The notes beneath the pieces are model-generated. The model saw only the letters and a list, made by a program, of their open reading frames with translations. It did no database searches and was not told the origin of the DNA. A stretch of 50,478 bases of DNA from a virus, in the IMG/VR virus record IMGVR_UViG_3300013093_002068, positions 1 to 50,478 of that record, one strand, 5' to 3'. The position numbers and the translations under genes were made by a program. How positions within the stretch are numbered: the first letter of the stretch is position 1; every line of letters starts with the position of its first letter. Below are positions 43,651-46,902 of this stretch, one piece after another.

Positions 43651-43658
43651 TATTTATC
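43651..43658 (-). promoter_or_regulatory. T4-type late promoter octamer (GATAAATA), 5 nt before ATG
   Basis: GATAAATA followed by TTGTT and the ATG at 43645. The octamer overlaps the TAA stop of the hydrolase gene upstream. Confidence 0.6.
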
Positions 43659-44352
43659 TATAGACAACTCGTTGTGTTGCTTCTTTGTCTTGATAAAACC
43701 AATGTCCTCCGACACGTCCAATGGCTGTCTTTTGATGAGCCCAGGGCGGTCTGACATTCGTAGCATGAAAGTACAATGCACCGTCATACTTGTTGCGCCA
43801 ATCACTGTAAGTATCGTCACTAGACAATAACTCTCGAGCAATTTGTTGACTTTCTACCCAACGTTCGTCTTCTCCTTTTGGAGTCTTGACAAACACACAG
43901 CGCCATGAGAATTGACACACAGCACGATTGACGTAGACAGTTTGAGTTTCCTCAACTGTACGGAAAAACTGACGCTTTTCCACGACAATATGTTTGGGAA
44001 CATTAAAGATCGTCTTTTGGTCGACCACGTTACATACTGAACGACCGAAACGTCCATCTTGGACACGGTTCAGTGTAACTAGGCCTACTGCTACCTTACC
44101 CTCTTCCGGCTCATTGGCCGCTTCGAAGAATATGTTACGGGCTAGGCATTGTAACTCTTTCATATTGACTACGGGAGTTGAAATCGCAGTTACGAACGAT
44201 CCAATCCTATCTCTAGCATCTGCTACTACATACCCAGCTAGATTGGGTTGACCCTCTTCTGTCACTTGCGGGGTCTCGGCATGACTGACACTTTGGAAAG
44301 CCAGAACCGATAATACTACTAGCGCACAAACTGCTTTGCGTATTATAGACAT
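43654..44352 (-). CDS. Cell-wall hydrolase, SleB/CwlJ type, secreted
   Basis: 232 residues. Residues 1-25 form a signal peptide (basic MSIIRK, hydrophobic ALVVLSVLAF, SHA before E26). The hydrolase_2/SleB domain has LARNIFFEAANEPEEGK with catalytic Glu about residue 77, VGLVTLNRVQDGRFG and CQFSWRC. The family cleaves peptidoglycan glycan strands as a lytic transglycosylase. In a phage this may be an exported endolysin or a wall-remodelling enzyme. It has the best ribosome-binding site in the window (AAAGGAGG at 44368-44361, 8 nt before ATG). An intrinsic terminator and a consensus promoter lie upstream, which suggests attenuation control. Confidence 0.88.
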   Translation of the reverse strand: MSIIRKAVCALVVLSVLAFQSVSHAETPQVTEEGQPNLAGYVVADARDRIGSFVTAISTPVVNMKELQCLARNIFFEAANEPEEGKVAVGLVTLNRVQDGRFGRSVCNVVDQKTIFNVPKHIVVEKRQFFRTVEETQTVYVNRAVCQFSWRCVFVKTPKGEDERWVESQQIARELLSSDDTYSDWRNKYDGALYFHATNVRPPWAHQKTAIGRVGGHWFYQDKEATQRVVYR

Positions 44353-44396
44353 ATCGTTGTCCTCCTTTGTTGTTAATTCCTCTCTGTGTGTGTTTA

Positions 44397-44426
44397 AAAC
44401 AAAAAGCCACTAACAAATGTAGTGGC
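44397..44426 (-). terminator. Rho-independent terminator upstream of the hydrolase gene
   Basis: Leftward hairpin GCCACTA-catttgt-TAGTGGC followed by TTTTTGTTTT. It ends any transcript coming from the right 45-74 nt before the hydrolase ATG. Confidence 0.8.
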
Positions 44427-44488
44427 CGTGTATATAATTACTTCAAATGACCATATACAGGACTAAAATAGGCTCAAAATGGCCCGTT
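44397..44488 (-). ncRNA. Candidate small RNA or hydrolase leader/attenuator (~92 nt)
   Basis: A perfect sigma-70 promoter (44523-44495) would start RNA near 44488, and the intrinsic terminator ends it near 44397. Between them lie two more possible stems: GGC-n8-GCC near the 5' end and TGTATAT/ATATACA in the middle. No open frame of note is present on this strand. Two readings fit: an independent small RNA, or a leader whose terminator blocks the lysis-type gene until read-through is allowed. The first 29 nt resemble a block at 48415-48444. Confidence 0.6.
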
Positions 44489-44494
44489 TAATAC

Positions 44495-44523
44495 ATTATA
44501 TACGCATTTAACTTATTTGTCAA
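44495..44523 (-). promoter_or_regulatory. Perfect sigma-70 promoter (TTGACA-17-TATAAT)
   Basis: Leftward TTGACA (44523-44518), 17-nt spacer, TATAAT (44500-44495), 12 of 12 consensus bases. It overlaps the last codons and stop of the kinase/adenylyltransferase gene. The next downstream signal is a terminator, not a gene start. Confidence 0.85.
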
Positions 44524-45292
44524 TGCCCATGCTACGTCTTATCTTAGTAGCACTGATTTGGGTTACAGCTTCATCAAATGATTCTTGTTCAATACGATAT
44601 CCTACATCACGTCCGTAGGTAATGTTTACTATATTTGGTACAACCTGTATTAGATACTGTCCTTGATATAGGGGATCCAGATCACGGCGGATAAAACTCT
44701 TAACTTTTTCAATTTCAAAAGGATTTGATCCTTGCCATCCTTGGCAGTCACGTATCTGTATTACTACCTGCCCTGTTTTAGCGATAGCACGTTCAAATAG
44801 AGCACGATGTCCATCATGCCAAGGTTGCCAACGGCCCAGCATCTGTACAGTTTCCTTCCGCCAATCAAATGTAGGGCGACGGCGGCGGTCTAGGATATGA
44901 TCAGCTATAAAGTCTGCCCACTTGTTAGCGTCCTGTTCTGTGATACGGAAGTCATAGTACTCGGGCTCTTGGAACATAGCGTTAGTATCAGCGTATCTGC
45001 TTTCACGGATAGTGTCTACCCAGATAGTCCAATCAGCTTTAAAGTTATTACGCATTTCCACTAAGGGCGCAACAAAATCACAGATTACGAATCTATCACC
45101 ACTTTCATCTGCTAGATCACGCATACGTTTACTTTGACGTATGCGTCCTTCATAACTGAAATCCCAATCGTTGTAATGTTTACGAACATCATCTGCATTG
45201 AACTGTACGGCGTCTATTTTCTCTGCTAGTGCTTTTGCTAGGGTAGTTTTACCTGCACCTGGTAAACCCATTATTAGTATTCTTTCGGTCAT
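44513..45292 (-). CDS. Fusion: P-loop kinase (APS-kinase-like) plus NMN-adenylyltransferase-like domain
   Basis: 259 residues from the ATG at 45292 (MTERILIMGLPGAGKTT); the frame continues upstream only to a TTG. Residues 1-115 carry Walker A (9-17) and FNADDVRKHYNDWDFS, GRIRQSKRM and CDFVAPLVEMR, the APS-kinase pattern. Residues 150-259 are a nucleotidyltransferase: GRWQPWHDGHRALF (HxGH-like DGH) and ISATKIRRSM, as in NadM/NadR-type NMN adenylyltransferases. It may join phosphorylation and adenylylation of a nicotinamide compound, as NadR does, or act on another substrate. The domain order is reversed relative to NadR. Confidence 0.78.
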   Translation of the reverse strand: MTERILIMGLPGAGKTTLAKALAEKIDAVQFNADDVRKHYNDWDFSYEGRIRQSKRMRDLADESGDRFVICDFVAPLVEMRNNFKADWTIWVDTIRESRYADTNAMFQEPEYYDFRITEQDANKWADFIADHILDRRRRPTFDWRKETVQMLGRWQPWHDGHRALFERAIAKTGQVVIQIRDCQGWQGSNPFEIEKVKSFIRRDLDPLYQGQYLIQVVPNIVNITYGRDVGYRIEQESFDEAVTQISATKIRRSMGIDK

Positions 45293-45336
45293 ATTAGTAT
45301 ATATCAGCCACAAATTTTACTAGGGCCAGTTCTGAC

Positions 45337-45344
45337 TTTAAATA
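45337..45344 (+). promoter_or_regulatory. T4-type late promoter octamer (TTTAAATA), 5 nt before ATG
   Basis: TTTAAATA, then CGCAC, then the ATG at 45350. The octamer plus CGC repeats the arrangement at 43402 on the other strand. Confidence 0.6.
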
Positions 45345-45349
45345 CGCAC

Positions 45350-45799
45350 ATGCACACATCAACTACAGTTCTAGTAACAGGCGGCTTTGACCCTATACAT
45401 TCGGGCCATATTGCGTTACTAAACTCTGCTAGGGCCCTGGGTGATAGACTAATAGTAGGTGTCAATTCAGATGCGTGGTTAACTCGTAAAAAGGGTGCCG
45501 CATTCTTGCCCATCCCGGAGCGTGTGATAATCTTAGAAAACCTTAGAGCTGTAGATGGAGTTATCCTATTCAATGACAACGATGACACAGCCATAGAAGC
45601 CATACGCAACGTGCTAGCCTTATACCCTAACGATCAGATCATATTTGCCAACGGGGGCGATCGTGGTGCAGACAATGTGCCAGAAATGACCCTAGTGGAT
45701 CCTAGGCTAAGATTTGAGTTTGGTGTTGGGGGTACTACAAAAGCTAATTCTAGCAGTTGGCTTTTAGATAAGTGGCTACAGTCTAGGCCACATTCATAA
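45350..45799 (+). CDS. Nucleotidyltransferase, RfaE/HldE-C-terminal-like
   Basis: 149 residues. VTGGFDPIHSGHIALL has the HxGH motif, GDRLIVGVNSDAWLTRKKG the sugar/phosphate region, FLPIPERVIILENLRAVDGV the ER-type motif, and FNDNDDTAIEAI follows. This is the pattern of the adenylyltransferase part of HldE, which makes ADP-heptose from heptose-1-phosphate, and of glycerol-3-phosphate cytidylyltransferases. The C-terminal part (FANGGDRGADNVPE) fits the HldE-like group best. It may activate a sugar for phage or host-surface glycans. The 3' end overlaps the convergent gene by 17 nt. Confidence 0.82.
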   Translation: MHTSTTVLVTGGFDPIHSGHIALLNSARALGDRLIVGVNSDAWLTRKKGAAFLPIPERVIILENLRAVDGVILFNDNDDTAIEAIRNVLALYPNDQIIFANGGDRGADNVPEMTLVDPRLRFEFGVGGTTKANSSSWLLDKWLQSRPHS

Positions 45800-46184
45800 T
45801 CCACATGGGTATACGCCCACAGTTGCCCGCACGTAGGGGCAAATCAGCTTTGGACCATTTGAACGTATCGCCCTGGAACTTGTTGTAAAAGTTAAACCCG
45901 TCAGCGAACCATACGTGTCCGGGATCACAAGGAGCCATGTGTGTATGAGCCCTAGGACCCTTACCCATAGCACCTGAGTCTGTGTATGTCTGCCCTGGGT
46001 CAATCCTAATAACCCAACAGCGTGAGTAGTCACTGATGCCACAATAGTCAGCATAAGCCCGCTGTTGCTCGGGGGTTAGTATACCCCCTAGCTCATACTG
46101 ATTATCTTGAGCCTGCTGATCCTTTAACTGATCAATTAGCCAATTCCAATCAATAAAGTTATAGTTGCCGTGAAAGTTGATCAT
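45783..46184 (-). CDS. Double-stranded β-helix-family protein lacking Fe(II) ligands
   Basis: 133 residues. The family frame is clear: FHGNYNFIDWNWLIDQL start, RIDPGQTY, PGHVWFADG, FQGDTFKWSKADLP and GNCGRIPMWI. However, the HxD position reads DSGAMG and the distal His position reads PLRAGN, so the iron site is missing. It is probably a non-catalytic relative, perhaps a binding or regulatory partner of the active copies. It overlaps the upstream, also degenerate, gene by 4 nt. Base composition is more GC-rich than most of the window. Confidence 0.6.
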   Translation of the reverse strand: MINFHGNYNFIDWNWLIDQLKDQQAQDNQYELGGILTPEQQRAYADYCGISDYSRCWVIRIDPGQTYTDSGAMGKGPRAHTHMAPCDPGHVWFADGFNFYNKFQGDTFKWSKADLPLRAGNCGRIPMWIMNVA

Positions 46185-46708
46185 AGTCTAGTAGTACCCA
46201 CAAAGTCTAGTAGCCAAAAGTCCTGATCGCTTAGATTTATCTGGGCCCAGGGCTTGGTCCAATCTTCCCATAGCCAACAGTCACCCTCGGGTATCTGGCT
46301 CAGGGTCTGCTGACCCAGTGCATCCAGCATCCATACTTGCCCAGGCGTCTTAGGGTTGACCCATATGGTATAGCGTTTGATCAGCTGTCCGGGTACCCTA
46401 GTCCATTCTTGTGCTCGGGTTATCCGTAGACTGCGGAAGGGTACCATACCCCCGGGTTTCAAACAAGTTAGGGTAGCGAACCTGGGTATAAGGTTAGTCC
46501 ATTTAGCTATGAGGGCTAGGGTCTGGGGGTATAGGGCTGCGTAGTCCCACTCTAGCCATTCAACTGTACTAGGGTCATGCCCCCATTCAGTCCACTGTTC
46601 AGATTGCTCAGGATCAATCGTGCCCTGCTGGCCCTGACCTAGCTGTGCTAATTGCTCAGCCCATACGACATCACGGTGTTTGATAGTGCCAGCCCAGTGT
46701 AGACTCAT
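46181..46708 (-). CDS. Degenerate double-stranded β-helix-family protein
   Basis: 175 residues. The similarity to the small oxygenase-like family is weaker but visible: WAGTIKHRDVVWAEQLAQL, CLKPGGMVPFRSLRI, TPGQVWMLDALG, EGDCWLWEDWTKPWAQIN. The HxD is replaced (PFRSL) and the distal His is absent (KPWAQIN), so no Fe(II) site is expected. Tandem with another ligand-less copy. The start overlaps the upstream stop as TAATG. GC-rich with many GGG/CCC and CTAG runs. Confidence 0.52.
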   Translation of the reverse strand: MSLHWAGTIKHRDVVWAEQLAQLGQGQQGTIDPEQSEQWTEWGHDPSTVEWLEWDYAALYPQTLALIAKWTNLIPRFATLTCLKPGGMVPFRSLRITRAQEWTRVPGQLIKRYTIWVNPKTPGQVWMLDALGQQTLSQIPEGDCWLWEDWTKPWAQINLSDQDFWLLDFVGTTRL

Positions 46709-46902
46709 TACTCTTCTGAAGTTGTAGCTGTAGGGTTAGGTGCAGATGCTCGCTTTTCTTTGCGTGGTGGAGCGATTTGGCTTTGTAGCACGGCCTGTAC
46801 CATATCGTTTAGGAAACTGCGGCGAGCAGCTTTATCTACGTAAGTAGCGGCCCAGCGTTTGTATTCTTTGGGCATCTTGAAGTTTGCTGTTGGTTTTAAC
46901 AT
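46708..46902 (-). CDS. Small basic hypothetical protein
   Basis: 64 residues, basic N-terminal half (FKMPKEYKRWAATYVDKAARR), then a low-complexity tail (PPRKEKRASAPNPTATTSEE). It could be a small DNA- or RNA-binding or virion protein; no family is recognised. The ATG at 46902 follows AAAGGAAT at a good distance. First gene of the leftward unit with the two ligand-less oxygenase-fold proteins. Confidence 0.6.
   Translation of the reverse strand: MLKPTANFKMPKEYKRWAATYVDKAARRSFLNDMVQAVLQSQIAPPRKEKRASAPNPTATTSEE

Follow-up and report, generated by a model that had tools for sequence, protein, structure and literature searches.

Phages must avoid making wall-degrading enzymes too early; T4 exerts this control at translation, and lambdoid phages exert it by antitermination. 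In the lambdoid pR'-tR' arrangement, transcripts from a strong sigma-70 promoter are terminated while still short, ahead of the lysis genes, and read-through switches these genes on. The Q site and terminator read-through of lambdoid phages have been described (PMC6266700). In T4, the early mRNA of gene e (lysozyme) hides its ribosome-binding site and is thus blocked at translation, and late promoters are located inside the leader hairpin (PMC3014915). T4 also makes two small RNAs whose role is unknown (PMC3014915).

Here, we analyzed a 50,478-base virus record (the whole stretch is called the window), in which a SleB-type cell wall hydrolase gene is preceded by a strong sigma-70 promoter and an intrinsic-terminator-like hairpin. 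We propose, with a probability of about one half, that this region is the 5' leader of the hydrolase gene and that the leader terminator limits early hydrolase transcription. Leader control of this kind is already known, and the window would represent a new variant of it; a leader terminator behind the strongest promoter type in a T4-like lineage would be a third arrangement.

Organization of the hydrolase leader

The hydrolase scores 64.9 bits against PF07486, above the curated cut-off of 27, and also matches PHROG endolysin families. Its N-terminus is signal-peptide-like by inspection, which suggests an exported wall-cutting enzyme. According to the original prediction, a 12/12 sigma-70 promoter drives only ~92 nt before a terminator, and the hydrolase ATG follows 45 nt further on, and each of these elements is present (Table 1). 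Transcription is expected to start near 44488, the T-run ends near 44397, the predicted transcript from start to T-run end is ~92 nt, and the ATG is located at 44352. The claim that the hydrolase possesses the best Shine-Dalgarno (SD) sequence of the window also holds, as no other AAGGAGG of the window stands at the right distance from a start codon.

Table 1. Features of the hydrolase leader and its flanking genes
Feature	Position	Strand	Remarks
12/12 sigma-70 promoter	44495..44523	-	TTGACA 44523-44518, 17-nt spacer, TATAAT 44500-44495
Hairpin 1 remnant (AAACGGGCCATTTTGAGCCTATTTT)	44465..44490	-	weak, -4.8 kcal/mol; imperfect dyad 44490-44476 inside
Hairpin 2 (GTATATGG...ATTATATAC)	44429..44459	-	predicted; sequence not conserved
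GTAATTATATACAC	44428..44441	-	window counterpart of the conserved GTAACTAAACTTAC / GCTAACTAAAACTAC of relatives
Intrinsic-terminator-like hairpin and T5GT4 run	44397..44427	-	8 pairs, 7-nt loop
ACACACACAG, unstructured leader stretch	44384..44393	-	conserved in relatives
Shine-Dalgarno AAAGGAGG	44361..44368	-	relatives keep AGGAGGACA
SleB-type cell wall hydrolase gene, 232 aa	43654..44352	-	PF07486 Hydrolase_2
Kinase-like gene upstream, phrog_10255	44513..45292	-	cargo, neighbours variable
Small MLKP-type gene	46708..46902	-	directly 5' of the hydrolase leader in relatives

The promoter is the single 12/12 sigma-70 site of the 50-kb window, compared with 0.125 expected from a first-order Markov simulation. 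Its -35 box is built from the last codons of the kinase-like gene (ATT GAC AAA TAA) and overlaps the stop codon (TTGACAAATAA). Therefore, the promoter lies in an intergenic leader and not in a free-standing locus.

The terminator-like hairpin comprises the stem-loop GGCCACTACATTTGTTAGTGGCT at 44427-44405, followed by TTTTGTTTTA, and combines a G+C-rich stem (4 of 8 pairs G-C, approximately -10.4 kcal/mol) with a U-run. Because terminator-like sites are no more numerous than chance predicts across the 10.5 kb scanned (6 versus 6.7 expected), the weight of this hairpin derives from its strength and position; of the six sites, it ranks first in pair count, T-run and G-C pairs. The hairpin is also present in the predicted fold of a 90-nt RNA ending after the T-run (-22.1 kcal/mol, z -1.9). 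The 92-nt segment had no match above the gathering score among the small RNA and riboswitch families of Rfam 15, and we found no paper on this hydrolase leader.

How does this organization compare with the described systems? As in T4 gene e, a leader element in a T4-like phage would keep early transcripts from yielding a wall-degrading enzyme. However, the element in the window looks like a transcription terminator and not like a translation block, and no TAAATA late promoter (TATAAATA) occurs in the leader. SD sequestration of the gene e type is unsupported by the predicted SD accessibility, which is 0.51 for the full leader and 0.65 for the short leader of the window and exceeds the shuffled 5' control in most relatives, being clearly lower only in G031 and L228. 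The lambdoid pR'-tR'-Q system shares with the window a sigma-70 promoter and then an intrinsic-terminator-like hairpin 5' of a lysis-type gene. Nonetheless, the phage here is T4-like and not lambdoid, the terminator precedes a single hydrolase gene that has its own SD and begins 45 nt past it, and none of six records, which are mostly fragments, matched the Q-type antiterminator families PF06530 and PF03589. The late co-activator family PF16805 gave no match anywhere, controls included. We favor a gating outcome like that of T4 gene e or lambda pR'-tR', which would be reached without the tested defining features of either system.

Phage group and promoter class

The window belongs to a T4-like large phage. 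Its relative G001 (331,570 bases), which carries a hydrolase homologue, encodes the T4-type capsid protein Gp23 (E 3.8e-82), and TAAATA late-promoter motifs are enriched 5' of G001 genes (TATAAATA in 8 upstream regions versus 0.5 expected). G001 also contains 16 perfect TTGACA-N16-18-TATAAT promoters, compared with 1 in the reversed control, and an excess is found in several further relatives. This excess indicates that perfect sigma-70 promoters are ordinary promoters of the phage group and that they are probably its early promoters. Given that such promoters are typical of the group and are normally located directly before ORFs, the 12/12 promoter of the window looks like a genuine early promoter.

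The window promoter thus resembles T4-type early promoters, which are near-consensus sigma-70 promoters for the unmodified host polymerase, in a group whose member G001 has Gp23 and TAAATA; it differs in its ~140-nt leader with a terminator. A survey of six records yielded 132 promoters that score 11 or 12 and lie no more than 300 nt upstream of an ORF, and their median leader from promoter to ORF is 31 nt. A terminator-like hairpin precedes the ORF at 6 of the 132 promoters, compared with 1.1 expected in shuffles. Two of these six cases are hydrolase leaders, one from the window and one from G031, its closest relative; in both, the promoter scores 12/12 and the hairpin is located in the leader proper, and none of the other four promoters reaches 12/12. 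A search of viral contigs for the pattern of a promoter plus a hairpin start returned no match.

Further promoter features were observed elsewhere in the group. Approximately 22 perfect sigma-70 promoters lie on one strand within 17 kb of G033 (G033:C1:50435-67079), as an early-gene array. In G001:C1:219186-228919, early promoters have the spacer motif GTGGTAAA in common, as well as the leader ACACACATACACTAAACAA 5' of the SD; a further window promoter at 50209-50181 has the same leader.

Conservation of the leader

Hydrolase homologues of 50-62% protein identity in viral contigs share the leader, and 120-145 nt upstream of the hydrolase is conserved by descent. The leaders of the relatives align with that of the window from the -10 box through the start codon, in the order TATAAT (or a degenerate form), hairpin-1 region, GTAACTAAACTTAC / GCTAACTAAAACTAC, variable stretch, ACACACA-AGACAG, AGGAGGACA and ATG. 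In a profile search with this alignment, hydrolase leaders and nothing else convincing were retrieved from six records (window, G001, G031, G032, G033 and G038), which indicates that the leader belongs to the hydrolase gene. The conservation of the 92-nt sequence, a check suggested by the original prediction, is thus found in relatives as an aligned hydrolase leader; among sequenced phages, the segment and its neighboring genes have no nucleotide-level match. The alternative antiterminator fold that had also been suggested did not emerge, as no conserved one was found in the leader. RNAalifold gave no consensus structure when run on the leader alignment, and the covariation of the GGCC pairing in hairpin 1 does not go beyond that of shuffles.

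The genes upstream of the leader are variable. The hydrolase leader directly follows the MLKP gene in relatives, for example G031 and L001; in the window, the two are split by a four-gene cassette that includes the kinase gene (45783-46708 and 44513-45799). The kinase-like phrog_10255 gene occurs in hundreds of viral stretches with changing neighbors. Eighty kinase homologue loci were kept, and in none of the 31 inspected is the hydrolase the next gene.

A dyad, AAAA-NNG-N-CNN-TTTT, lies directly 3' of the -10 box in the window and the aligned leaders, operator-like at the start site. As a 7-bp dyad with a 1-nt center, it has a covariation score of 0.295 versus 0.154 in shuffles, and 0 of 500 shuffles reach this value, with 10 related sequences compared. 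The hint of an operator was dropped and the dyad is left without explanation because these sequences are only 10, the window has an imperfect version of it and dyads of this type are not in excess at strong promoters in general.

Promoters and terminators in related phages

The 12/12 promoter occurs at the same place of the leader in the window, G031 (L220/L307) and L229. The upstream genes of G031 (MLKP type) and L229 (another gene) differ from that of the window. TATAAT stands without a -35 box in L126, L001 and L228, and neither box is found in L125, L127, L129, L176, L130 and L159. In L001, L125, L129 and L176, whose proximal promoter is weak, the MLKP gene, located ~350 nt upstream, carries an 11-12/12 promoter; in the window and G031, whose proximal promoter is perfect, the MLKP gene lacks a strong one. 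By the same measure, L126, L228, L130 and L159 have a strong promoter at neither place. From this small sample, a single strong promoter seems to feed the leader, and it may sit at either place. Overall, a sigma-70-like site of at least 10/12 is found in 19 of 44 distinct hydrolase leaders, compared with 3.6 in shuffles.

Hairpins between upstream transcription and the hydrolase recur among the relatives, at differing places. Strong terminator-like hairpins (-13 to -15 kcal/mol) separate the MLKP gene from the hydrolase in L126, L001 and L125. They are located at the leader start, where the window retains only the weak hairpin 1 remnant, and in two of these relatives, L001 and L125, the MLKP gene also has the 11-12/12 promoter. 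In G031, a stable hairpin begins almost at the expected start site and is followed by a poor T-run; the promoter-hairpin survey counted it, yet a separate terminator scan did not report it. The 3' terminator is unique to the window; relatives are without that stretch or have a short hairpin there without a T-run. The terminator scan gave no hit in the leaders of L228, L229, L129, L176 and L130, and L229 thus has a perfect promoter without a clear terminator. Given its presence in some relatives and absence in five, the leader terminator appears to be common in the group but not universal.

Candidate later starts were identified in two sets of relatives. The leaders of a distant hydrolase group contain TTGACT-N17-TATTAT together with TTAAATATC, a T4-type late motif located 34-56 nt 5' of the ATG, and TAAATA is present in L128, L132-L135 and others; in this group, the hydrolase is likely to have both early and late starts. 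In the last 80 nt of L128, L132-L135, L138, L140 and others, a hairpin lies between TTAAATATC and the SD, and its sequence varies while its pairing is kept. In group A relatives, AACTAAA(A/C) is conserved 67-89 nt before the ATG, with a hairpin after it in some, and the corresponding GTAATTATATACAC of the window is a possible second (late) start signal. AACTAAA is not enriched upstream of other G001 genes and is thus no evident late promoter.

Proposed mechanism and alternatives

The promoter, the hairpin with its T-run, the conserved leader and the recurring hairpins are features of the sequences themselves. From these features, we infer early use of the promoter, transcription termination at the hairpin that serves to hold back the hydrolase, and some form of relief of this block. 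Transcription would start at the strong host-type (early) promoter at the leader 5' end, and the intrinsic terminator inside the leader would stop most early transcripts before the hydrolase gene. The same terminator would also stop transcripts that read out of the upstream kinase gene. The hydrolase would be made from the read-through fraction and probably also from a second start later in infection. The block may be relieved by leakage or antitermination, or bypassed by a later start, for which the AACTAAA element (GTAATTATATACAC) is a candidate. A delay of the hydrolase to late infection is plausible, although the leader of the window lacks the TAAATA late promoter carried by more distant homologues. 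The original prediction offered either a small RNA or an early cut-off; we favor the cut-off because the leader aligns to the hydrolase start and hairpins recur in relatives, and we consider the small RNA less likely.

A plain operon boundary is somewhat unlikely, although it explains several observations. In this explanation, the hairpin ends the kinase operon, the promoter is the hydrolase's own and has no timing function, and leakage suffices for expression. The hairpins of L126, L001 and L125 are located directly 3' of the MLKP gene, like ordinary terminators, the hairpin of the window lies ~90 nt past the kinase gene, and relatives with a strong promoter at the MLKP gene or at the hydrolase do not have one at both, as if one suffices. 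However, the terminator of an upstream operon would be expected 5' of the next gene's promoter. The hairpin of the window instead lies 3' of the strongest promoter of the window and, because of this downstream location, must act on the transcripts of the 12/12 promoter too. Moreover, a hairpin after a 12/12 promoter is otherwise unseen in these genomes.

It is doubtful that the ~92-nt transcript is a phage small RNA that is produced early and acts in trans. The promoter and terminator do bracket a short ORF-free stretch whose predicted fold is somewhat more stable than shuffles, and the two T4 small RNAs provide a precedent (PMC3014915). Nevertheless, the segment is conserved solely as a hydrolase leader, diverges fast and was not found in other places, and its terminator occurs in the window alone. 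It is very improbable that a hydrolase mRNA started later, at GTAATTATATACAC, has the hairpin at 44427-44405 mainly as its 5' end, stabilizing and not terminating: the variable hairpins after the late promoter of the distant homologues and the hairpins after AACTAAA in some group A relatives fit such a role, but the window element mismatches the late consensus TAAATA, AACTAAA lacks enrichment in G001 and a stabilizing hairpin needs no T5GT4 run.

Leader termination as the preferred reading of the window could extend to the group. T4-like large phages may restrain a lysis-type hydrolase by leader termination and a phage antitermination factor unrelated to Q, with promoter and terminator positions that turn over while the arrangement is kept; we regard this generalization as unlikely. 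Relatives with a promoter and a hairpin at differing places make the arrangement directly testable by reporters.

Two further observations concern the surroundings of the hydrolase gene. The window contains a long run of cargo genes at 9965-42113; judged by eye from their translations, many resemble radical-SAM enzymes, 2-oxoglutarate-type oxygenases, and sugar-nucleotide and glycosyltransferase-like proteins. On the minus strand, a T4-type late motif TAAATA at 43656 overlaps the end of the hydrolase gene and stands 5' of the next small gene (MRAHEF..., 43645-43430).
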